From Tubulanus polymorphus (Eukaryota; Nemertea; Palaeonemertea; Tubulaniformes; Tubulanidae), in assembly GCF_964204645.1 (NCBI RefSeq), contig NC_134032.1, forward strand, positions 15,748,775-15,812,774: a stretch of 64,000 nt of DNA, read 5' to 3'. Shown in pieces: positions 50,225 through 64,000 of the stretch. Every line of letters starts with the position of its first letter. Position 1 is the stretch's first letter. Made by a program: the position numbers and the translations under genes. The notes beneath the pieces were generated by a model. It saw nothing but the letters and a program-made list of their open reading frames with translations, was not told where the DNA came from and searched no databases.

Positions 50225-51000
50225 GACTTTCATAAATGGTGCAATTAATTGTATTTTTCTGACCTTCTGATGAAAGGAGAGAGAATTTAAACCAATGAAT
50301 TAGCAATAGCGATTTTTCGAAAAATAGTGAATTTTTCTGACGATTTGATGAAAAGAGAGAATTTAAAACAATAAATCAAAAATATCGATATGATGCTCTG
50401 ACGAAAAGGAGAGAAGAAGAAGTTAAACCAATAAATTAGAAATAGCGATTTCTAGAAATAAGCGATTTTTTCTGACCTTCTGGAGCAAGCTGAGAGAATT
50501 TAAACCAATGAATCAGAAATAGTGATTTTTCAAAAAATAGTGAATTTTTCTGACGATTTGATGAAAAGAGAGAATTTAAACCAATAAATAAAAATATCGA
50601 TTTTTGGAAAAATATTGAATTTTTCTGATGCTCTGATGAAAAGAGAGAATTTAAACCAATGAATCAGAAATAGTGATTTTTGGAAAAATAGTGAATTTTT
50701 CGGATGCTCTGATGAAAAGAGAGAATTTAAACCAATAAATAAAAATATCGATTTTTGGAAAAATATTGAATTTTTCTGATGCTCTGATGAAAAGAGAGAA
50801 TTTAAACCAATAAATCAAAAATATCGATTTTTGGAAAAATAGTGAATTTTTCTGATGCTCTGATGAAAAGAGAGAATTTAAACCAATAAATCAAAAATAT
50901 CGATTTTTGGAAATATAGTGAATTTTTCTGATGCGCTGATGAAAAGAGAGAATTTAAACCAATGAATCAGAAATAGTGATTTTCAGAAAAATAGCAAATT
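50225..51000. repeat. Minisatellite, 76-bp AT-rich unit, about 10 copies
   Basis: Unit contains GATGAAAAGAGAGAATTTAA, CCAATAAATCAAAAATATCG and GGAAAAATAGTGAATTTTTC; period 76 measured at 50639 and 50715. Confidence 0.93.
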
Positions 51001-51346
51001 TAAGGGGACTAATTAGCACATAATACCTGTGTTCATTTCCCTCCACTGGCTTCCAGTACAGCAGCACATTGGCTATAGATTAGCTCCTCAGTATCTGTTA
51101 ATGTCGAGTATCGTCTCGCTCGCTTTGTTCCAGTAACAACAGACGGACGTCTCATTTTGCGTACAGACTAAAGTTCAGTGTCACAGCATTATCCCCCCTC
51201 AGGAACACTGCATAATAACTTCAGAATAATTCACAATTTCTATGAGACTTCAAGCGAGCGCTTAATCCCGGTGTAACTAAACTCTGCATAACTCATGTCT
51301 GGTGTATTTTCATATGATTTAATATTTTTATTTATTTTTTTAGAAA

Positions 51347-51409
51347 ATGCCAAAAACAAGACGAATGTGGGAGGGTGGCCCTGCTGCCACTTCGTCCCCG
51401 TATTCACCA
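51347..51409 (+). CDS. Micro-exon gene, exon 1
   Basis: tttttag|AAA ATG ... TCACCA|gtaagt. 21 codons from ATG: MPKTRRMWEGGPAATSSPYS then P. The full exon from 51344 is 66 nt, still in phase. Confidence 0.7.
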
Positions 51410-54400
51410 GTAAGTTCAAATTTAAACGTCTAATTCTTCTCCACGGTGACCGACACTATTTTGTACATAGTTTTGTATTAATATATTGATTTATTCATAC
51501 CATCCGTGTTAAATACCGAGTCTAAACAGATCATTTATTTTTCATTCAAATTGCTAACAAAAATTTAAAAAAAAAGAAAAGAATTTTAAGATAATGTTGG
51601 TGAAATTGTTGTGGATCGACAAAGTGTATCGTTCCCCTAAATATCAATATTCTGTAAAATGATGTATAGATGATACTAATTGTTTATCAAATGTTTGGTT
51701 GTCATTGCATGAATATGTTTTTCTCTCTTTTCTAGCAAACAAGAAGGCGCCACCTTGACGAAAGGGCGGAACAAGAGGCCAACTTGGACCGGATAGGTGA
51801 GCGGTCATTTCAACCGGTAAGTTTAAATCGGTAACGAGTCGATTTTGCTAGCATGTCTCTTACTTAACTACTTGTAACACAATTACATCATTTTGGTAGC
51901 TTTAACTTCTTGATTAAGTTCAAAAACTCAAATGTAGTTATAAAATCTCGGTTCCTTTCATTGTTGGTTATAATACGAGGCTTAGCGATAAGACGGGCAC
52001 TTATTCATACGCGTAGGCAGCTAGCGTCTTTCAGTTGAGTAAACCGGTTCATCCTACGTGAACTGCGGTTTTTGCCATCTATAAAAGTTATGAACAAGTT
52101 AAAATTATGAATTCTCATCTGATAAACGTCAACTAAGGCCACACCAAAAAAAATCCGGTTTCTCTGGCGGGGCAATCACCAAAATGAGTAGGTCGGTAGG
52201 GAATTTTTTTTTCTTTTTATAGAAAAAAAAAAATTTTGGGTTCTCTTCTAACAGTGGGTAGGTCGCCGTAAATAATTTTTGATGGGACCAAATTTCCAGT
52301 TGAAAATATGATTAGCAGCTTGTCGATGACAATAATAAAGGGAAGTTGATGTTTTTGTATTATATTTCACACTTGGAAACCGTTTATAAAACGAAAAACA
52401 TCAAAATCTTGCATAGGCATATAATATATTGTATACGGAATTCCTGGAATTATACAATCCAAGGTCGCCATCAATATGTGATTGGCAACGTTATCTGAGC
52501 ACACAAGTACCATATCCATTATAAAATTGTTAAATCCAATGTAATAAGATATTTTTATCATGTCGTCTCGGTGCCGACATCACGATTTCACGAAAAAGAA
52601 AAAATATTTACGAGAATGGAGAGCTTTGTAGTCGGTCGGCCATATATATATTTTTGAAAAATAGTTATTTCATCCACAATTTTGAAATAGGGTCGGTAGG
52701 CAATTTTATTTTATTTCGAAAATAATTATTTGAAATGTCGAAATATCGGGTCGGTCGGGCCCGAGAAACAGGGTTTTCTTTTGGTGTGGCCTAAACTTTA
52801 AGTTGTCTTAGTTTTAGTTGCTCTATGTCGTCCTCTCTCAGTATTCAACATTTGTTGAGTCTTAAAATTCTCGTTATCATTAATCTTTCAAAGATGTTAT
52901 GCAAGCAGTTTCACATTGACCAACATCGAGTTCATTTTAAGAAATTTTTTGCTTGTCAAATTTTCTGATGGTTGCATCAATTACACTCTGTTCTCAATTT
53001 CACAGTAATTAATGATTTTTTTTTTCAGTTTGAATTGACGCCCCCGGTCCAAGTTGAGCGCTCGGAATTCTCCGGTGACTGGGTAAGTTACAGCGAAATA
53101 CGGTTGAAGTCAATTGTTGGAACAAATATTAAACCCTGGATATTTTCACGAAATTGACTTCGCTTTGTTTGCTATTGAAATTTTTTTCCATCATTATATT
53201 GGTGGCGCCACCAAGGGGGCGTTTTGTTAAAACTGATATGCGAATTCGTAGAAACAATTGATAGGTATTGGTAGAATAACCCATACTCAAATGTGGAGAA
53301 CGGATAAGATGAAAACCCACTACAAATAAAAGTTAAAAATTGAGAATTTATTAAATTTAAAAACAACCGATCTCACGTGAGACAATGATCTCTAGTGTGA
53401 GATCTCACGTGAGACAATGATCTCTAGTGTGAGTTCGAAACGTCGTGTTTTTCAATTTTAATTCGATTGAATATTGATGTGGGTTTCATCTTGGTAAATT
53501 TGGTATCCTTCCCCCAATTTTTTGTTATTGAGGGAATTTTCGCTCGGATGAACGGGGTTGCCACCAGGACCTAGTTCCACAGTTGTGAGTTAGAGTTAAA
53601 TCTTGAGTTAAAATCAATTCATTTCCAATGAGTTAATTCTTAACTCGAAACTGGGCTTGAACTCTGAATCATCATCAGAAATAGAATATACTTAGATGTC
53701 TGGAATGTCAGCCATTTCAATCAACGTTTCGGCCAAAACCGATATTTGGTGGTCATCTTTGTTTTTCGTTTTTGCTTCTGAAAATGGTCCAAATTAAAAG
53801 TTTTTTAACAGAACTCCCGTCATAGGATTTGAAAAATTTTGAAACTTTGTACAATACTACTACTAATAAGCATTCATTTTTTTTTCTTCATTGCCAACAG
53901 GTGTGATTTTACTTGAAAAAAATACTACATTTTGTCCATTTTGGCCAAGTTTTAGAGTTTTTAGAACAGGACCTCATCTTAAATTCATTGCGTCAGATTT
54001 GTGCGTGTTGTTTTGGAAAATGACAAACATGATTGTGTCACCCGACCTGTGTACCATCATAAACCATGTCCTTATCCTCGAATCTCCTTGCTACAATCTG
54101 AGCGGATGATGTTAAAAAACGACAAAGACAGGACCGCCAAAAACTCTAAAACCGTGTTTACCGAATCAGAAATCAGATAATCATCATAATCCATTTAATT
54201 GCATAATAAAAGTTAACTCTCATTGTATTTTCAGTATGTTCCCCCTACACCACCGCGAAGGCGCCAGACGCTGGTGAGAACACCGGTAAGTTACAACTAT
54301 TCTCTAATAAACAATACTTATTTTGATTTATTAATTTGAAAATAGTGGGCAGTAGCTAGTTTGCATAAATTATGTAAATTAGAAATAAAATCATGGATTT

Positions 54401-57400
54401 AACACATAATCATTTTTGCAATACCAACAACTGCGATATGTACAAGTCTTTGTGTCCTAAGTGACAAAGATTGTTCCACCTGAGTTTAATATGATACGCA
54501 AATAATTGTTTGTAATCACTTGCAATGTTAATTAAATCAAATGTTCTTTAACCAGTCATCTATCAGTGAACTATCAATTAACTATCAATCAGTGAACTAT
54601 CAGTGAACTATCAATTAACTATCAATCAGTCAACTATCAGTGAACTATCAATTAACTAGTAAACTACATAACTAGATGATCTCTTAAGCCTAGCGCACAT
54701 CGACACTGCGATTGGAGACAACTAGTTTGACCAGTTTGACGAGTTTAGACTGGTCTTAAGTTGTTAGATTGGTTATAGAACCAAAATGAGCTTAGACTGG
54801 TCTTAAGTTGTTAGATTGGTTATAGAACTAGAATGAGCTTAGACTGATCTTAAGTTGTTAGATTGGTTATAGAACCAGAATGAGTTTAGACTGGTCTTAA
54901 GTTGTTAGATTGGCAATAGAACCAGAATGAGTTTAGACTGGTCTTAAGTTGTTAGATTGGTTATAGAACCAGAATGAGTTTAGACTGGTCTTAAGTTGTT
55001 AGATTGGTTATAGAACCAGAATGAGTTTAGACTGGTCTTAAGTTGTTAGATTGGTTATAGAACCAGAATGAGCTTAGACTGGTCTTAAGTTGTTAGATTG
55101 GTTATAGAACCAGAATGAGTTTAGACTGGTCTTAAGTTGTTTGATTGGTTATAGAACCAGAATGAGGTTAGACTGGTCTTAAGTTGTTAGATTGGTTATA
55201 GAACCAGAATGAGTTTAGACTGGTCTTAAGTTGTTAGATTGGTTATAGAACCAGAATGAGTTTAGACTGGTCTTAAGTTGTTAGATTGGTTATAGAACCA
55301 GAATGAGCTTAGACTGGTCTTAAGTTGTTAGATTGATTATAGAACCAGAATGAGTTTAGACTGGTCTTAAGTTGTTAGATTGGTTATAGAACTAAAATGA
55401 GCTTAGACTGGTCTCAAGTTGTTAGATTGGCTATAGAACTAAAATGAGTTTAGACTGGTCTTAAGTTGTTAGATTGGTTATAGAACTAAAATGAGCTTAG
55501 ACTGGTCTCAAGTTGATAGAATAGTTTTAGAATTAAAATGAGCTTAGATTGGTCTCAAGTTGTTAGATTGTTTATGGAACTAAAATGAGCTTAGACTGGT
55601 CTTAAGTTGTTAGATTGGTTATAGAACCAGAATGAGTTTAGACTGGTCTTAAGTTGTTAGATTGGTTATTGAACTAGAATGAGCTTAGACTGGTCTTAAG
55701 TTGTTAGATAACTTATAAAACCAGAATGAGTTTAGACTGGTCTTAAGTTGTTTGATTGGGTATTGAACCAAATTAGTTTAGACTGGTCTTAAGTTGTTAG
55801 ATTGGTTATAGAACTAAAATGAGCTTAGACTGGTCTTAAGTTGTTAGATTGTTTATAGAACTAAAATGAGTTTAGACTGGTCTTAAGTTGTTAGATTGGT
55901 TATTGAACTAGAATGAGTTTAGACTGGTCTTAAGTTGTTAGATTGGTTATAGAACTAGAATGAGCTTAGACTGATCTTAAGTTGTTAGATTGGTTATAGA
56001 ACCAGAATGAGTTTAGACTGGTCTTAAGTTGTTAGATTGGTTATAGAACCAGAATGAGCTTAGACTGGTCTTAAGTTGTTGGATTGGTTATAGAACCAGA
56101 ATGAGTTTAGACTGGTCTTAAGTTGTTAGATTGGTTATAGAACTAAAATGAGCTTAGACTGGTCTCAAGTTGTTAGATTGGCTATAGAACTAAAATGAGT
56201 TTAGACTGGTCTTAAGTTGTTAGATTGGTTATAGAACTAAAATGAGCTTAGACTGGTCTCAAGTTGATAGAATAGTTTTAGAATTAAAATGAGCTTAGAT
56301 TGGTCTCAAGTTGTTAGATTGTTTATAGAACTAAAATGAGCTTAGACTGGTCTTAAGTTGTTAGATTGGTTATAGAACCAGAATGAGTTTAGACTGGTCT
56401 TAAGTTGTTAGATTGGTTATTGAACTAGAATGAGCTTAGACTGGTCTTAAGTTGTTAGATAACTTATAAAACCAGAATGAGTTTAGACTGGTCTTAAGTT
56501 GTTTGATTGGGTATTGAACCAAATTAGTTTAGACTGGTCTTAAGTTGTTAGATTGGCTATAGAACTAAAATGAGTTTAGACTGGTCTTAAGTTGTTAGAT
56601 TGGTTATAGAACTAAAATGAGCTTAGACTGGTCTCAAGTTGATAGAATAGTTTTAGAATTAAAATGAGCTTAGATTGGTCTCAAGTTGTTAGATTGTTTA
56701 TAGAACTAAAATGAGCTTAGACTGGTCTTAAGTTGTTAGATTGGTTATAGAACCAGAATGAGTTTAGACTGGTCTTAAGTTGTTAGATTGGTTATTGAAC
56801 TAGAATGAGCTTAGACTGGTCTTAAGTTGTTAGATAACTTATAAAACCAGAATGAGTTTAGACTGGTCTTAAGTTGTTTGATTGGGTATTGAACCAAATT
56901 AGTTTAGACTGGTCTTAAGTTGTTAGATTGGTTATAGAACTAAAATGAGCTTAGACTGGTCTTAAGTTGTTAGATTGTTTATAGAACTAAAATGAGTTTA
57001 GACTGGTCTTAAGTTGTTAGATTGGTTATTGAACTAGAATGAGTTTAGACTGGTCTTAAGTTGTTAGATTGGTTATAGAACTAGAATGAGCTTAGACTGA
57101 TCTTAAGTTGTTAGATTGGTTATAGAACTAAAATGAGTTTAGACTGGTCTTAAGTTGTTAGATTGGTTATAGAACTAAAATGAGCTTAGACTGGTCTTAA
57201 GTTGTTAGATTGTTTATAGAACTAAAATGAGTTTAGACTGGTCTTAAGTTGTTAGATTGGTTATTGAACTAGAATGAGTTTAGACTGGTCTTAAGTTGTT
57301 AGATTGGTTATAGAACTAGAATGAGCTTAGACTGATCTTAAGTTGTTAGATTGGTTATAGAACTAAAATGAGTTTAGACTGGTCTTAAGTTGTTAGATTG

Positions 57401-60400
57401 GTTATAGAACTAGAATGAGCTTAGACTGGTCTTAAGTTGTTAGATTGTTTATAGAACTAAAATGAGTTTAGACTGGTCTTAAGTTGTTAGATTGGTTATT
57501 GAACTAGAATGAGTTTAGACTGGTCTTAAGTTGTTAGATCGGTTATAGAACCAGAATGAGTTTAGACTGGTCTTAAGTTGTTAGATTGGTTATAGAACCA
57601 GAATGAGTTTAGACTGGTCTTAAGTTGTTAGATTGGTTATAGAACCAGAATGAGTTTAGACTGGTCTTAAGTTGTTAGATTGGTTATAGAACTAAAATGA
57701 GCTTAGACTGGTCTCAAGTTGTTAGATTGGCTATAGAACTAAAATGAGTTTAGACTGGTCTTAAGTTGTTAGATTGGTTATAGAACTAAAATGAGCTTAG
57801 ACTGGTCTCAAGTTGATAGAATAGTTTTAGAATTAAAATGAGCTTAGATTGGTCTCAAGTTGTTAGATTATTTATAGAACTAAAATGAGCTTAGACTGGT
57901 CTTAAGTTGTTAGATTGGTTATAGAACCAGAATGAGCTTAGACTGGTCTTAAGTTGTTAGATTGGTTATTGAACTAGAATGAGCTTAGACTGGTCTTAAG
58001 TTGTTAGATTGGTTATTAAACCAGAATGAGTTTAGACTGGTCTTAAGTTGTTTGATTGGGTATTGAACCAAATTAGTTTAGACTGGTCTTAAGTTGTTAG
58101 ATTGGTTATAGAACTAAAATGAGTTTACACTGGTCTTAAGTTGTTAGATTGGTTATAGAACTAAAATGAGTTTAGACTGGTCTTAAGTTGTTAGATTGGT
58201 TATAGAACTAAAATGAGCTTAGACTGGTCTCAAGTTGATGGAATAGTTTTAGAAATAAAATGAGCTTAGATTGGTCTTAAGTTGTTAGATTGTTTATAGA
58301 ACTAAAATGAGTTTAGACTGGTCTTAAGTTGTTAGATTGGTTATAGAACTAAAATGAGCTTAGACTGGTCTCAAGTTGATAGAATAGTTTTAGAATTAAA
58401 ATGAGCTTAGATTGGTCTTAAGCTGTTAGATTGGCTATAGAACTAAAATGAGCTTAGACTGGTCTTAAGTTGTAAGATTGGTTATAGAACCAGAATAAGC
58501 TTAGACTGGTCTTAAGTTGTTAGATTGGCTATAGAACTGAAATGAGCTGAGACTGGTTTTAAGTTGTAAGATTGGTTATAGAACTAAAATGAGTTTAGAC
58601 TGGTCTCAAGTTGATAGAATGGTTTTAGAATTAAAATGAGCTTAGACTGGTCTCAAGTTGTTAGATTGGTTATACGTAGAACTTAAGCTGGTTATATAGT
58701 CTAATTGGTAACTAAATCAACTTCTTAATTTGCTTTATAGTCCAAAAACCTCTATCATAATTACTGGTTTTGTACAAATGTCAGAATTTGCTACAAAATT
58801 TACTAATTGTTCGTTAAACAGTTTTAATGAAGAATCTATGATACATGCATTCATGAATATCCATCTAATATTTTGTTTTATTTTATCTTTACAGGACATA
58901 ACACCAATTGATAAAACCGACGTAAGAGTTTAAACATTTATCTTGCAATTTAACATCTTGCAATTAAAACTAATTCATGCAATTTCAATGTTGATATTTT
59001 GATGATACATTAATATTTGTATTTGATAGAATATACTGATTGACAGTGCTTTAATGAAAACCTGACAATAATAATGGTCAATTCAATTTCTTTTAATTTT
59101 ACAACATCATTATCATTTTAGCTGCTTCGGCTAGAAATTTGCCATTTCACCATACTACATACTTAATCAAATAATAAAAAAAGTGATTTCTTGCTTTGAA
59201 TATTCATCTGAATCTATTGTTGAAAATCAATTGTTTGGCAAGTGAAAAATTGAAGTTAGGAAACAAAATTTTAACCTCGTTGCGTACCGGGTCATGTTTA
59301 AGATCCAGAATCCCGGGATTTTTTGGAAAATATATGAGTGAAATCCCATTGAACAAAGCTTTCATCAGTACGCCTGACATTTCGACATTTCGACATTGGC
59401 TAATATAGTGTAGCAGAAATACATATACATGTTTACATTTCTAATCAAGAATTTTTACATCTTTAGATTATTGTGGGATTTCTCTCATGTACACGTATAT
59501 CTTTGCATGTTTTTATTTCGGTTAATTTTGACACAATCAAAGAGTACATGCTTATCAAAGTCTTGAAACTTTAAACATTGTGTCTTCTATCAAAACTTGG
59601 TTGAGATGTGCTACTCAGATCAGCATTTGGATTTTATTTACACTCCCACTAAAACGTGAGCGGTGCCGTCTGTAGATATTCTATTTGTTCACAAGTGGCG
59701 CCATCTTTAAAGATGAGATGAATACCCATCAATACCAGCCAGTTAAAAATTCGCGAATTTCAGTCAGTGGAAAATATTGAACCCGATTAGAATTTCGGGT
59801 AGCAATACCCAACAAGAGATTAATAATATCGACAAGGTCTTGCTCTATGTTTCCAGATGACATACGTGTAGAGTTTTGAATTAAAAATGAACGGTACTAA
59901 GTTTTTGAACCCTCTGAACTCAAACTACGGATTGCCCAGGATACTTCTCTCTTCAATGAAAACCAGCACGTTGAACTAACTAACCTCGGAATAGAAATAT
60001 TTAGAAATTCAATTCTTAATAAATTTGACTGATGTGTTTATATTGTTGTCTTTTCTAGAGTTCGATGTCGATGTTGTCGGTGTCGGTATCACCGCCAATT
60101 TCAGCTGTAAGTATAAATATCAGTAAAGCTCCTGAACATGCGAAACTTTTTATCTTTCTATATAGCTAATAACATCAAGCTGTAGCTTAATTATGAAAAG
60201 GTTCCGCGTTAGGAAGAATTTTGTTGAACCAATAGAAATATTTAATTTCAACATGTAGCATCACGCCATAAACCGGAGAACTGCATCAAATTGTGCGAGA
60301 TCATGATGTCCTCCAATTTCCCTAGTGTCCGGGGGGGGGGAGGGGTTAGGGCCGGGGGGTGGTATTAGATAGATAAATCATCAATCTTATCTCAGTTTAA

Positions 60401-61776
60401 CCCTTTCAGTTCGTCTACACCGCAGTGCGGTGTATAAATCTGATGGATTTTGCTAGTACACCGCACTGCGGTGTATTGATGTAATTAGTAATTTGTAATT
60501 ATCTCTATTGAAAAATGGCAGCAAGTTTCAAACATAGTGAAATACTAGTACCTAACGATACACCGCACTGCGGTGTAGACGCACTAGGGTGGAATTTCTA
60601 AAAATTTTCAAATTTTCTCCAGCACTATAGGGTATTAATTAGTCAGCCCTGAAAGGGTTAATAGATGTCAGTTTCTTCGTACTAATAATGCAATAATGCA
60701 GCGTGTAATGTGTAGATTAAAATTGTCTTCTGTGAATTTGTATATTCTTCATTAATTTGAACTTATTTTATCTTTTTCAGACTTCAGGATTTGACATACC
60801 GTCCTTTCCGACGACCTTTGGAGCAGTAAGTTACAATTCTAGTTTGATGTTGTTCACTGACTGACTCTCTCTACGGATTAGATTTCTAGAAGAATCCAAA
60901 ACAAATTTCTAGTGTAAAACATAAAACTATTGAAGCCGTGAGACAATTTTTTATTACAGTAAATTTTTTCTGATCGATAAAACGATAGGCTTTCAATTTA
61001 TAATCAACTCTAAAGAAAGGTTCGCAAAGCATTTTTTCGCTGAAAATGAATTTCTACATTTGATCACGGATGACCTTCGCCCAACCTTGGATATTTTGGT
61101 TGATTTTCTTTGGCCACGCCGAACACAGGTTTATCAAAACTTAAATCTGGCTGTGCGCTTCACCAAGTTTCGACTTTGACGTATTATGCTTAATAAACTA
61201 CGCCGAAAAAGCATTTTTTAGCACACTCAAATGCAATTTCAGAAGCCTGTAATTTCACTACTAATGGGCAAATTGAACGGATTAAGCAAAAATACCTTTC
61301 TTTCTTAATTTGTTTTTCTTTATGGTGCCAAAGTTGAAAGTTGAAAGCCTTGGGTTTCATATATTTTGGGAATTTTACCAAAAATGGTAAAGAATTTTAT
61401 GTATTTTATCATGTTTTATTTATGCTGCATCTTTAACTGTCCAAAATTACACATGTGAACATTCAATATTATTTGTTATTAGAAGTAAGCTTACTTGTGT
61501 CGAAATCTGACGTCTTGTTCAGTTTCTAGGGGTTTTCTCGAAATTTCTGGTTCTATATAATTTGTGTTGACCCTGTTTGACCTCCCTCCAGCGCATGTGT
61601 ATTAAACAAAATGGTGGCATGATAGAATCGGTTGATATTCATAATTTCTGGCGCAATTACTGATACTCAAGGCGCATACAAATTTGGGTTCAAAATAACG
61701 AATAAATTTTTGTTAACTTCGGCTCGGTGATAACTTTAAGTACACTGGTGTCAGCAATATGGCCATGTGCACGACG

Positions 61777-61847
<71 letters not shown>

Positions 61848-63892
61848 ATGTTTATATGGTTTATAACAATTCAACTCATGATTTGACTAATATATTTATG
61901 TTGTTTTCATTTGTAGATTGAACAATATCCTTCCGGACAGACGCCTGTCATCAGTTCTGTAAGTATAGATACCAAGCACCTTTCCTCCTTGCATCTGATT
62001 AATAAGAGGCAAAATGATCCAATCAAAGAACTGCATTGAAAATTGTAAACTAATTGGGCTCCTGAATTGTGGACTAATTGGGCTCCTGAATTGTGGACTA
62101 ATTGGGCTTCTGAATTGTGATTTTTGAGGTTTTTGATTTCCCGCACAAATGAAGGTTACAAATTTTACAGAAATTTGCGAGAAGAAAATCGGAATTCAAT
62201 TTTTTGCACTGGGAATTCGCCCTGTAATCTAGCTTCAAATTGTGTTCTATGAATTTCAAATTGTGATAACAATGAATATTTTTCATTAATTTGTATTTAT
62301 TTTATTTTCTCCAGATTTCTTACAACCTACATGTGACGCCATCTCCGCCGATGAGACCCGTAAGTTATAATTATACTCTGATATTTTGTGTTTTATTGGA
62401 TCTAAAAGATTATCAGTGAATTATATCTCCCAGGTAGAAACTCAGGTCGAACTTCGGTTTTCGTTGCTAGTCGACTAGTGGTCGGAACTAATAACCGAAC
62501 ACACTATAGTTCGGTCGTAACGTATTTCACAGTGCCGGCCATCTTGAACCTAGGTCCGAACTGTAGCGACCGTGCTCAATCGCGTGGTCGACCATTACCG
62601 GACTATAATTCCGACTAACGGACATTCGGTTTCACTTAGTTCGACTATAGTCGACTGACTCCGATAACCGAAGGTGGCCTTGGGTGTTTGTATCTAGTCG
62701 ACTGATGGTCAGAACTAATAACCGAATGCGCTTAATTTCCGAATCATTTCCAGACCAGAGTTCCTACTAACGGACATTCGGTTTCATTTAATTCTACTTT
62801 TTAGTCGACTAACTCAGATAACCTTTCACTCTGTATCCGTCGTGCGCCATCACCTGACACCTCATTACAGCCAATAATTCTTGCGATTTCCATCTGTTGT
62901 TTTTCAAGCAACCACCAAGCAATTGATCGCTTGGCATTTCCTGTGTGCTATCACTAGAGATGGAGAGGCAATTAGCTTTCCCGCCAAATTGGAAGTATCA
63001 CATGATAATTATCCACTCATTCATTGGCTAGTTGATGAGTTGCTCGTCGCTTGGCATCTCCAGCTACGGCACACGGGCAACTCCCGAGCGATCGGTGAGC
63101 AATTTTCTGTCGCCCGATATCGTTTCATATTTGAAGGGGTTGACCTGAAAATTGGACTGGGCGCTCATTATGAAGGGGGCAGATTCTGCTTGTGAGGGCT
63201 GCAACAGGGCAACAGTTGTGGGCTTATTTTGGGCCCAGCATATATAGGAGCAAAAGGGGCATTTTATGCCATTTGGATTTATCGTTGATTCCTCAATTTT
63301 TTAATATCAAAGAATAATTTTTGAATTACACCAGTAAGATGAACCTTAATTTTCCAATCAATGTGACAGGTGTCCAGGTCTACATACATTTCACAAATGA
63401 ACGTCCTTTTTTAAAGTTTCTTTCGTCGATTTTTTCAAGAAATTTGGAGGGCGAGGGGAAAAAATTATCTGTTTATTTTTTATGATAGGCATTTTTAAAT
63501 TGAAGGAAAAAAATAACAATAATAATAAATAAAAACTGAAAAGTTAGATAGAATTGATGAATGCAGTTTCTCACACTAAAAATGCAGCGTGTAATGTGAT
63601 TGAAATTGTGTTTAAGAATTTGTATATTCTTAATTAATATGAAATCGTTTAATTTTTTCTAGAATCAAAGCATGGATATCGTAGATCCGACGCCAGATAT
63701 CGGACCTGTAAGTTAATAATTCTAGTTTGATGTTTTTCTGTGCGTGTTAGGACAGTATCAGTAATTGATAAAATATGTTATACTCGTCTTGAATTTCAAA
63801 GTGCGATTTCTATATTTTTCATTAATATGAAATCCTTTTATTTTTTCTAGAATCATAACAACATTCCGGTGCAGCGGTCGCCCGTTCAAGTG
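51347..63892 (+). CDS. Micro-exon gene: 11 consecutive phase-0 exons encoding a Pro/Ser/Thr-rich protein (continues past right edge)
   Basis: Not recognised. Exons: 51347-51409, 51736-51816, 53029-53082, 54235-54285, 58895-58921, 60059-60106, 60781-60825, 61917-61958, 62315-62359, 63663-63707, 63851-63892 (63, 81, 54, 51, 27, 48, 45, 42, 45, 45, 42 nt). Every one is a multiple of three, begins and ends on a codon boundary, and has ...AG acceptor and GTAAG donor; together 543 nt and 181 codons without a stop. The N-terminal part is charged (QTRRRHLDERAEQEAN, PPRRRQTL); later exons are short modules of 14-16 residues rich in Pro, Ser, Thr and Ile (SPPISA, PSFPTTFGA, TPSPPMRP, DPTPDIGP). No signal peptide, membrane span or known domain; predicted to be disordered. 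The ATG lies 3 bases after an acceptor, so translation may start there after an untranslated leader exon, or the exon may be internal. Coding status rests on splice sites and phase alone. Confidence 0.75.
51736..51816 (+). CDS. Micro-exon gene, exon 2
   Basis: ttctag|CAAACA ... CAACCG|gtaagt. 27 codons, charged: QTRRRHLDERAEQEANLDRI, then GERSFQP. Confidence 0.75.
52137..52791. mobile_element. Non-autonomous PIF/Harbinger-like DNA transposon (655 bp) in intron 2 of the micro-exon gene
   Basis: Terminal inverted repeats GGCCACACCAAAA.. and ..TTTTGGTGTGGCC, extended imperfectly to about 30 bp (CGGTTTCTC / GAGAAACAG). They are flanked on both sides by TAA (52134-52136 and 52792-52794), the 3-bp TWA duplication typical of PIF/Harbinger. 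Inside are GGTCGGTAGG-type subterminal repeats and no coding region. Confidence 0.8.
53029..53082 (+). CDS. Micro-exon gene, exon 3
   Basis: tttcag|TTTGAA ... GACTGG|gtaagt. 18 codons: FELTPPVQVERSEFSGDW. Confidence 0.75.
53374..53448 (+). ncRNA. Degenerate hammerhead-like motif (fourth copy)
   Basis: TCTCACGTGAGACAATGATC is tandemly duplicated (31-bp period), then GAGTTCGAAACGTCGTGTTT. GAAACGUC and part of stem II survive, but the CUGANGA box reads GUGAGACAA, so this copy should be inactive. Confidence 0.5.
53565..53655. repeat. Partial copy of the CAGTTCCACAGTTGTGAGTT foldback family
   Basis: Left arm and centre (TTCATTTCCAATGAGTTAAT) present; right arm reduced to TTAACTCGAAACTGG. Lies in intron 3 of the micro-exon gene. 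Confidence 0.7.
54235..54285 (+). CDS. Micro-exon gene, exon 4
   Basis: tttcag|TATGTT ... ACACCG|gtaagt. 17 codons: YVPPTPPRRRQTLVRTP. Confidence 0.75.
54540..54660. repeat. Short tandem repeat, AACTATCAATTAACTATCAA
   Basis: Several 12-25 bp units at the start of intron 4 of the micro-exon gene. Confidence 0.8.
54725..58680. repeat. Large 47-bp minisatellite, about 84 copies, with higher-order structure
   Basis: Unit includes TTTAGACTGGTCTTAAGTTG and TTAGATTGGTTATAGAACCA. A diverged unit type (GATAGAATAGTTTTAGAATT) recurs at 55514, 56266, 56641, 57815 and 58378 with spacings of about 16, 8, 25 and 12 units, so multi-unit blocks have been copied. Fills most of intron 4. Confidence 0.96.
58895..58921 (+). 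CDS. Micro-exon gene, exon 5 (27 nt)
   Basis: tttacag|GACATA ... ACCGAC|gtaaga. Nine codons, DITPIDKTD. The least certain exon because it is so short and follows a 4-kb repeat. Confidence 0.55.
58925..60055. other. Intron 5 of the micro-exon gene, no feature seen
   Basis: AT-rich; the open frame at 59196-59408 has no support. Confidence 0.5.
60059..60106 (+). CDS. Micro-exon gene, exon 6
   Basis: ttctag|AGTTCG ... TCAGCT|gtaagt. 16 codons: SSMSMLSVSVSPPISA. Confidence 0.7.
60408..60570. repeat. Three copies of the palindrome ACACCGCASTGCGGTGT (intron 6)
   Basis: Palindromic 17-mers at about 60418, 60457 and 60560, 40-100 bp apart. Same core as the arrays at 26.3 and 37.9 kb. Confidence 0.8.
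60781..60825 (+). CDS. Micro-exon gene, exon 7
   Basis: tttcag|ACTTCA ... GGAGCA|gtaagt. 15 codons: TSGFDIPSFPTTFGA. Confidence 0.75.
60830..61770. other. Intron 7 of the micro-exon gene, no feature seen
   Basis: AT-rich; the reverse open frame at 61190-61381 has no support. Confidence 0.5.
61776..61845. repeat. (TA)n microsatellite, about 70 bp
   Basis: Uninterrupted alternating TA in intron 7. Confidence 0.97.
61917..61958 (+). CDS. Micro-exon gene, exon 8
   Basis: ttgtag|ATTGAA ... AGTTCT|gtaagt. 14 codons: IEQYPSGQTPVISS. Confidence 0.7.
62040..62125. repeat. Short tandem repeat, 24-bp unit, three copies
   Basis: GGACTAATTGGGCTCCTGAA plus TTGT, in intron 8 of the micro-exon gene. Confidence 0.85.
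62315..62359 (+). CDS. Micro-exon gene, exon 9
   Basis: ctccag|ATTTCT ... AGACCC|gtaagt. 15 codons: ISYNLHVTPSPPMRP. Confidence 0.72.
62440..62825. repeat. Diverged two-copy tandem duplication with GTCGACTA words (intron 9)
   Basis: TAGTCGACTAGTGGTCGGAA at about 62467 returns as TAGTCGACTGATGGTCAGAA at about 62694, and CTAACGGACATTCGGTTTCA occurs at about 62614 and 62768. The second copy is shorter. Confidence 0.75.
62860..63640. other. Intron 9 remainder, unassigned repeat-like sequence
   Basis: GC-richer block 62860-63240 (ATCGCTTGGCATTTCC, later CGTCGCTTGGCATCTCC) resembles an old transposon, but no ends were found. The open frame 62881-63195 has no domain. Confidence 0.4.
63663..63707 (+). 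CDS. Micro-exon gene, exon 10
   Basis: ttctag|AATCAA ... GGACCT|gtaagt. 15 codons: NQSMDIVDPTPDIGP. Confidence 0.75.
63851..63892 (+). CDS. Micro-exon gene, exon 11
   Basis: ttctag|AATCAT ... CAAGTG|gtaagt. 14 codons: NHNNIPVQRSPVQV. The intron before it is only 143 bp. Further exons are expected beyond the window. Confidence 0.75.
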
Positions 63893-64000
63893 GTAAGTTA
63901 TAATTCTAGTTTGATGATAGTTCACGAAAATAAGAAATGTTTCCTTCGAGTACTGCATTGATAGTTTTTGCGAATATTCTCTGAATTTTGAATTGAACGC

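Follow-up and report, generated by a model that had tools for sequence, protein, structure and literature searches.

How can a gene consist largely of exons of a few dozen nucleotides, all in one phase, and why do several of these exons differ more between copies of the gene than the introns between them? Both questions are raised by a locus of the nemertean Tubulanus polymorphus that begins in the 64,000-nucleotide stretch analysed here, C8:15748775-15812774 in a genome of 267.8 Mb and 77 contigs. We call this whole stretch the window. A reading of its letters made without database searches (the sequence-only reading) had described a gene built only of symmetric phase-0 micro-exons. We find that the locus has, by its sequence, the structure of a gene, that it belongs to a family and changes under codon-type constraint, and that several of its micro-exons differ more between copies than introns do. 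The reading that we favour, with about even confidence, is of a coding member of a large micro-exon family in which exchange between copies is the main cause of the exon excess and whose protein is more probably nuclear than extracellular; from the sequence we infer splicing, isoforms and the nuclear role.

A gene of 16 micro-exons and four ordinary exons

A fixed exon rule (YAG acceptor, pyrimidine fraction of at least 0.7, GTAAG donor, length 18-110 nt) was applied to positions 51000-64000. On the forward strand it returned 13 candidates, 11 of them multiples of three and all 11 of these open, and on the reverse strand none. The number of open candidates of such length in 200 dinucleotide shuffles averaged 0.3 and never exceeded two, and a single one was returned from positions 1-51000, searched on both strands. 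All eleven phase-0 exons with GTAAG donors named by the sequence-only reading are present, and its view that accident would seldom produce them agrees with the shuffles. They have AG acceptors and measure 66, 81, 54, 51, 27, 48, 45, 42, 45, 45 and 42 nt; the 181 codons originally counted are correct when counting begins at the ATG. The features are as follows.

51344..51409, + strand: exon 1, 66 nt, KMPKTRRMWEGGPAATSSPYSP; likely ATG at 51347; homologous first exons in relatives on C8 and C6
51410..51735, + strand: intron 1; 88-92% identity (6-7% substitutions, plus gaps) to its counterpart in ten C8 array units
51736..51816, + strand: exon 2, 81 nt; compared with the C8 array units, synonymous divergence saturated
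53029..53082, + strand: micro-exon 3, 54 nt, FELTPPVQVERSEFSGDW
54235..54285, + strand: micro-exon 4, 51 nt, YVPPTPPRRRQTLVRTP
58895..58921, + strand: micro-exon 5, 27 nt, DITPIDKTD; counterpart of the C6 exon DLSPIQHVD
60059..60106, + strand: micro-exon 6, 48 nt, SSMSMLSVSVSPPISA
60781..60825, + strand: micro-exon 7, 45 nt, TSGFDIPSFPTTFGA
61917..61958, + strand: micro-exon 8, 42 nt, IEQYPSGQTPVISS
62250..64000, + strand: window part of a duplicated 2.7-kb stretch
62315..62359, + strand: micro-exon 9, 45 nt, ISYNLHVTPSPPMRP; duplicate at 67547, 5 bases differ, 4 of the 5 synonymous
63663..63707, + strand: micro-exon 10, 45 nt, NQSMDIVDPTPDIGP; duplicate at 68887, identical
63851..63892, + strand: micro-exon 11, 42 nt, NHNNIPVQRSPVQV; duplicate at 69075, 1 base differs

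Positions beyond 64000 continue the numbering of the window. Because an acceptor precedes the ATG of exon 1, a putative 5' non-coding exon, not found here, is likely. Downstream, five further phase-0 micro-exons (45, 39, 45, 45 and 42 nt) lie at 66857-69116. Of these, the final three duplicate exons 9-11 and fall inside the 2.7-kb duplication, in which 62250-64959 recurs at 67482-70156 with 97.2% identity. A looser donor rule found no further open exon of 3n length between 69117 and 83140. The gene is closed by four exons that are not symmetric: three of 58 nt (phase 0-1), 66 nt (1-2) and 227 nt (2-0), and a terminal one whose coding part is 393 nt long; the stop codon, TAG, is at 88842-88844. 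The word 'only' in the original description must thus be given up. Skipping does preserve the frame, as had been proposed, for each of the 16 micro-exons, judged by phase and length. These make up 16 of the 20 coding exons and 254 of 502 codons (including the codon before the ATG and the stop).

All 20 exons joined give one frame of 500 residues with a single stop at its end. The shuffles and this frame rule out chance exons; the notion of open stretches without a gene has also to face the family and the codon-type change described below, and we regard it as refuted in practice by the frame and the family.

The protein starts MPKTRRMWEGG (the translation begins MPKTRRMWEGGPAATSS). Proline, serine and threonine form 35% of the micro-exon part, in line with the composition first reported, and cysteine is absent from it; from this composition the front half is probably disordered. 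Neither a signal peptide nor a hydrophobic stretch was seen by eye, as in the sequence-only reading, though a further coding exon may lie upstream. The last exon contains KKKTKRKRK, a candidate nuclear signal. Pfam gave nothing above cut-off for proteins of the family, so that here too the earlier failure to recognise a family stands, and a PDB search by sequence gave one unconvincing match (E 0.084).

Related genes on C3, C6 and C8

Ten relatives of exon 2 lie in a tandem array, degenerate in part, on the opposite strand at C8:15044000-15066300. Other C8 loci have their own sets of phase-0 micro-exons with GTAAGT donors, examples being NMPKATKKSIGARGRPGPLTSSPS, HQQQQQQQQQQLGES, IVPPTPGQVAPPPPPTP, NLSPIPGPSA, GRAPPHQRQSPRLTP and NTTLDSTVPLSPVRP. 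Arrays of the same type of gene occur on C6 and C3, and two C6 units of about 30 kb each were retrieved. The C6 relative encodes 343 residues in one frame of nine exons with matching exon phases: phase-0 micro-exons of 66, 93, 39, 27 and 39 nt, then exons of 82, 66 and 230 nt and the terminal exon. Its exon DLSPIQHVD differs from DITPIDKTD of the window gene at 12 of 27 bases, whereas the 56 bases directly upstream are identical. Within the window gene, too, several exons have flanks that are alike and are themselves unlike, consistent with a gene that grew by duplicating exons, which then changed quickly. In two units of the C8 array (L007:9572-10000 and L006:1996-2417) exon 1 has no acceptor, and by reading the letters an in-frame stretch, NETDQAFIERSSAK-MPKTRR, is seen upstream; exon 1 looks as if fused to another coding piece.

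The 88 bases around the stop codon occur at 40 or more places including the window gene (six on C8, ten on C3 and 24 on C6), and 34 of 40 scored copies have 95-100% identity at this end of the terminal exon, a lower bound since 40 of 48 candidates were scored. These 88 bases (L005:5288-5375) are predicted to form a long hairpin across the stop codon, with -46.3 kcal/mol (z -10.3) in the C8 copy and -51.1 kcal/mol (z -11.1) in the C6 copy. A second predicted hairpin, in the coding part of the terminal exon, has -50.5 kcal/mol and z -7.8 in both copies. Between C8 and C6 the later part of the terminal exon is almost the same and its first 150 bases are clearly different; the few differences seen in the hairpins are not compensatory. 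The hairpins may either act as RNA or merely reflect an old inverted repeat. Rfam gave nothing at gathering score in the window, and six matches (E up to 1) in four loci, again none at gathering score. In the C6 array, copies of the terminal exon also lie on the opposite strand. A viral origin of this exon was considered and rejected: a scan of viral contigs gave 238 pattern matches and, by tblastn, no relatives.

In the seven loci read (L022-L028), a second type of terminal exon, VELVARGPGWSR..DPI..LRDVEGAF, has frames that stay open over 240-313 codons. This related C-terminal stretch has 58 matches genome-wide, the last two weak and many within a few Mb of contig ends, and no Pfam family was found for it.

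Exons that differ more than their introns

When the window gene is compared with the ten array units on C8, intron 1 shows 19-22 differences over 318-321 aligned sites (K 0.062-0.072). At the coding sites on either side of it, counted without codons 1-5 of exon 1, which are rearranged in eight of the ten units, synonymous divergence is saturated (pS 0.69-0.78) and about 10% of nonsynonymous sites differ. The step in divergence is located at the splice sites, and the flanks are almost unchanged. The codon-like pattern of substitution on which the sequence-only reading had staked its gene is present, in the saturation of synonymous sites as against about 10% nonsynonymous change, in the distribution of changes over codon positions 1, 2 and 3 (10, 3 and 21), and in insertions and deletions of 6 and 9 nt that keep the frame, the last in an alignment of 22 of 30 matches, those covering at least 444 of 620 bases.

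Younger copies give the same order of rates. We pooled 15 exon comparisons from four locus pairs, one of these being one of the ten possible pairs of array units. Differences were found at 19.8 of 186.2 synonymous sites (10.6%), 23.2 of 551.8 nonsynonymous sites (4.2%) and 111 of 10466 intron sites (1.1%), where the intron count for the loci L011 and L012 covers their 150-base flanks, and where the C6 Q-repeat exon, C6 E7-E9 and the NTT exon of L011 and L012 (which differs in length) are left out. The changes come in bursts: five of the 15 comparisons (C6 E3, exon 9, exon 1 of L011 and L012, and the NTT exon and E1 of the array) carry 35 of the 43 changes, and synonymous differences in these exons reach 0.24-0.35. 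Positive selection acting just on the protein would hardly explain this, because it is the synonymous sites that change most per site.

The individual sets are as follows; the Fisher tests quoted here assume independent sites, which the bursts violate. Between the two C6 units, the six front exons differ at 15 of 346 sites, all nine exons at 20 of 862 and the introns at 36 of 5432 when the repeat-rich intron E6-E7 (142 of 6302) is set aside; the excess of the front exons has P 1.5e-7 on this count and P 0.0004 against 178 of 11734 with that intron included. In the 2.7-kb duplication of the window gene the exons differ at 6 of 132 sites and the remainder at 34 of 2543 (P 0.012). Exon 1 of L011 and L012 has changed at 13 of 72 sites, while its flanks differ at 0 of 140 and 2 of 150. 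Among five units of another C8 array, one of which has an in-frame TAG in exon 1 and was kept, the variable sites number 13 of 72 in E1, 7 of 45 in the NTT exon, 1 of 45 in the GRAP exon and 59 of 2488 elsewhere. For E3 and E4 together, 22 copies vary at 18 of 66 exon sites, compared with 9 of 239 intron sites nearby and 35 of 293 deeper in the introns (Fisher 1.4e-7 and 0.003), and of the 13 codons of E3, seven show synonymous variation only.

As a control, we examined tandem cytochrome P450 genes in nine stretches, four tandem sets chosen by position from the 84 matches of one family search. The exon was less diverged than both flanks in all ten comparisons, three of which are pairs among the same three copies. 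The reversed order is thus neither assembly-wide nor general for tandem genes here, as far as one family shows.

What drives the change in the exons?

We rank exchange between copies above selection on RNA, and the latter above constraint on introns and a process directed at exons, which we place about level; each is a proposal. According to the first, the family has grown by tandem expansion on C3, C6 and C8. In the protein the front half, 254 codons in 16 phase-0 cassettes, could vary in content by gain, loss or skipping of exons without a shift of frame, and the rear half, from four ordinary exons, carries the basic nuclear-type stretch and the strongly conserved end. Copies would exchange DNA and conversion would keep their introns alike, single exons would stay apart or move as units between diverged copies, and purifying selection would hold the protein. 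Exchange is supported by scrambled fragments of the family at C6:678300-687300, exons with their own intron flanks, which are possible donors.

Several observations weigh against this explanation. Some exons show no excess: C6 E7 has 0 of 66 changes, C6 E9 is unchanged (0 of 220 in the count, and identical over all 395 bases), and between L011 and L012 the Q and NLSP exons do not differ at all and the GRAP exon is not raised. E7 and E8 were sought in a set of 22 copies, in which E7 could not be aligned because its spacing differs; E8, in the 20 copies left after two truncated ones were dropped, varies at 19 of 227 exon sites and 41 of 192 flank sites, the upstream flank being partly misaligned by intron variants, and the nearest 50-60 bases on each side are almost unchanged. 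Among themselves the ten array units show a weak exon excess (13 of 132 against 18 of 360, P 0.06). The transversion excess between the window gene and the array (transitions to transversions 10:24 in exons, 14:5 in the intron) is gone in younger copies (15:7 and 24:20), which speaks against any simple account. No copy could be traced as a donor, and 146 matches to a junction-spanning query, with two stretches read, showed no spliced copy. Some of these matches looked junction-like (e.g. 34-81 of 124), and in both stretches read, C6:678300-687300 and C3:535400-538700, the exons retain intron flanks; retrocopies as templates were rejected on this ground. The step at the splice sites is sharper than plain conversion should give. 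Lastly, the proposed nuclear role is suggested by KKKTKRKRK, a motif of nuclear-signal type.

The sharp step invites a process bounded by splice junctions, be it RNA-guided mutation, cDNA-templated replacement of exons or escape from small RNAs, which could randomise synonymous codons and leave protein and introns nearly constant; we consider a process of this broad kind possible but doubtful. One form of it would be selection on the mature mRNA: small RNAs from the family would silence copies that share exon sequence, so that synonymous changes which break pairing would be favoured and introns left untouched. An excess that is greatest at synonymous sites and ends at splice sites fits this, as do the two strong predicted hairpins of the terminal exon (z -7.8 and -10.3) and the opposite-strand copies of that exon in the C6 array. 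However, the hairpin exon is itself almost unchanged between C6 and C8, the hairpins have no Rfam match at gathering score and this idea does not obviously predict bursts in single exons, and we think this form improbable. Bursts limited to one exon would fit if spliced RNA or cDNA guided mutation or replacement directly. Borders at splice sites with almost unchanged flanks (13 of 72 against 2 of 290 for exon 1 of L011 and L012), and saturated synonymous sites next to an intron diverged by 6-7%, are what this would give. Set against it are the lack of junction-spanning retrocopies (0 among the 146 matches and the two loci read) and the loss of the transversion excess in younger copies (10:24 against 15:7). 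We know of no mechanism of such a kind in animals, and we give this proposal little credence.

It may be instead that the introns are slow, held by splicing signals of micro-exons or by regulatory DNA, and that silent sites of the exons change at the neutral rate. The 56 identical bases upstream of the 27-nt exon in C6 and C8 point this way, and the repeat-rich DNA of C6 does diverge more than the other introns (142 of 6302 in E6-E7; aligned blocks 94-99% identical). Yet C6 introns of more than 1 kb are as alike as the exon flanks (9 of 1163, 15 of 1863 and 7 of 1134; flanks 11 of 1700), the non-exon DNA of the 2.7-kb duplication is equally alike (34 of 2543), synonymous differences of 0.24-0.35 in burst exons exceed even those of repeat-rich DNA, and P450 introns show no such conservation. 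This, too, seems to us quite unlikely.

Other features of the window

A module of about 73 bp within intron 1 (51418-51490) is also found at 29 dispersed places on C1-C12, with a similar upstream stretch in most of the nine copies read, often with TATAAATA; it may be the end of a transposon or a gene for a small RNA. Intron 4 is mostly filled by a 47-bp minisatellite of 84 copies (54741-58674), and many other minisatellites occur in the window. Palindromic CACCGCAGTGCGGTGTA motifs are repeated at 60397-60661, with an inverted relative of 81% identity at 85707-85996. An intronless open frame of 367 codons at 6482-7585 matches Gly_transf_sug (PF04488; E 8.4e-10).

Comparison with known systems

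The sequence-only reading had likened the locus to the micro-exon genes (MEGs) of schistosomes. MEGs are reported to have much of their coding region in very small symmetric exons and to form multigene families, and their products all to carry a signal peptide and have high dN/dS (PMC4350168). The likeness holds for the layout, narrowly, as about half of the coding region here is in such exons (254 of 502 codons). It fails for the signal peptide, none being seen by eye, and the C-terminal half is of nuclear type. Nor is dN/dS high: pN is about 0.10 against pS of about 0.7 in the old comparison, and 0.042 against 0.106 in the young. Membership of the MEGs is ruled out on the signal peptide.

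The bicycle genes of aphids were also considered. Bicycle proteins carry a cysteine motif, which cannot be present here because the micro-exon part is without cysteine. These genes have many unusually small internal exons, nearly all of phase 2, and form large, fast-evolving families of candidate secreted gall effectors (PMC9168663). The many small exons, 16 of 27-81 nt here, are shared; the phase, 0 in all 16 micro-exons, and the absence of a visible signal peptide are not, and membership is ruled out on phase.

For the pattern of divergence, the tandem L and M opsin genes of primates are a precedent: exons diverge more than introns, which is explained by conversion of introns together with selection against conversion of exons, and synonymous divergence is 6.1-6.4% (PMC3213168). 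The opsin pattern is milder. Here exons also exceed introns, though not every exon does; in the old comparison synonymous sites have reached saturation, and the effect extends over many copies and several of the tiny exons. Low intron divergence and quickly changing exons in young copies are also described for snake SSP genes (intron rate 0.0649 for SSP-1/2; PMC6609765) and for primate NPIP (PMC7419210). In those genes it is amino-acid changes that are in excess, whereas in the present family the highest rate per site is at synonymous positions. In the literature searched, with subscription papers and preprints mostly outside it, we found no phase-0 micro-exon family whose proteins are of nuclear type, and no case of synonymous sites at saturation next to introns so similar.

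Many symmetric micro-exons in one gene are chiefly associated with effectors secreted by parasites and gall-making aphids. If the protein here is of nuclear type, as we infer, the micro-exon layout may be a more general route to variable, disordered proteins. It is commonly assumed that synonymous sites and introns evolve about equally fast; in the young copies the two differ about tenfold, which makes this family a test case for that assumption. If the borders at the splice sites hold, a process that reads spliced RNA becomes testable.

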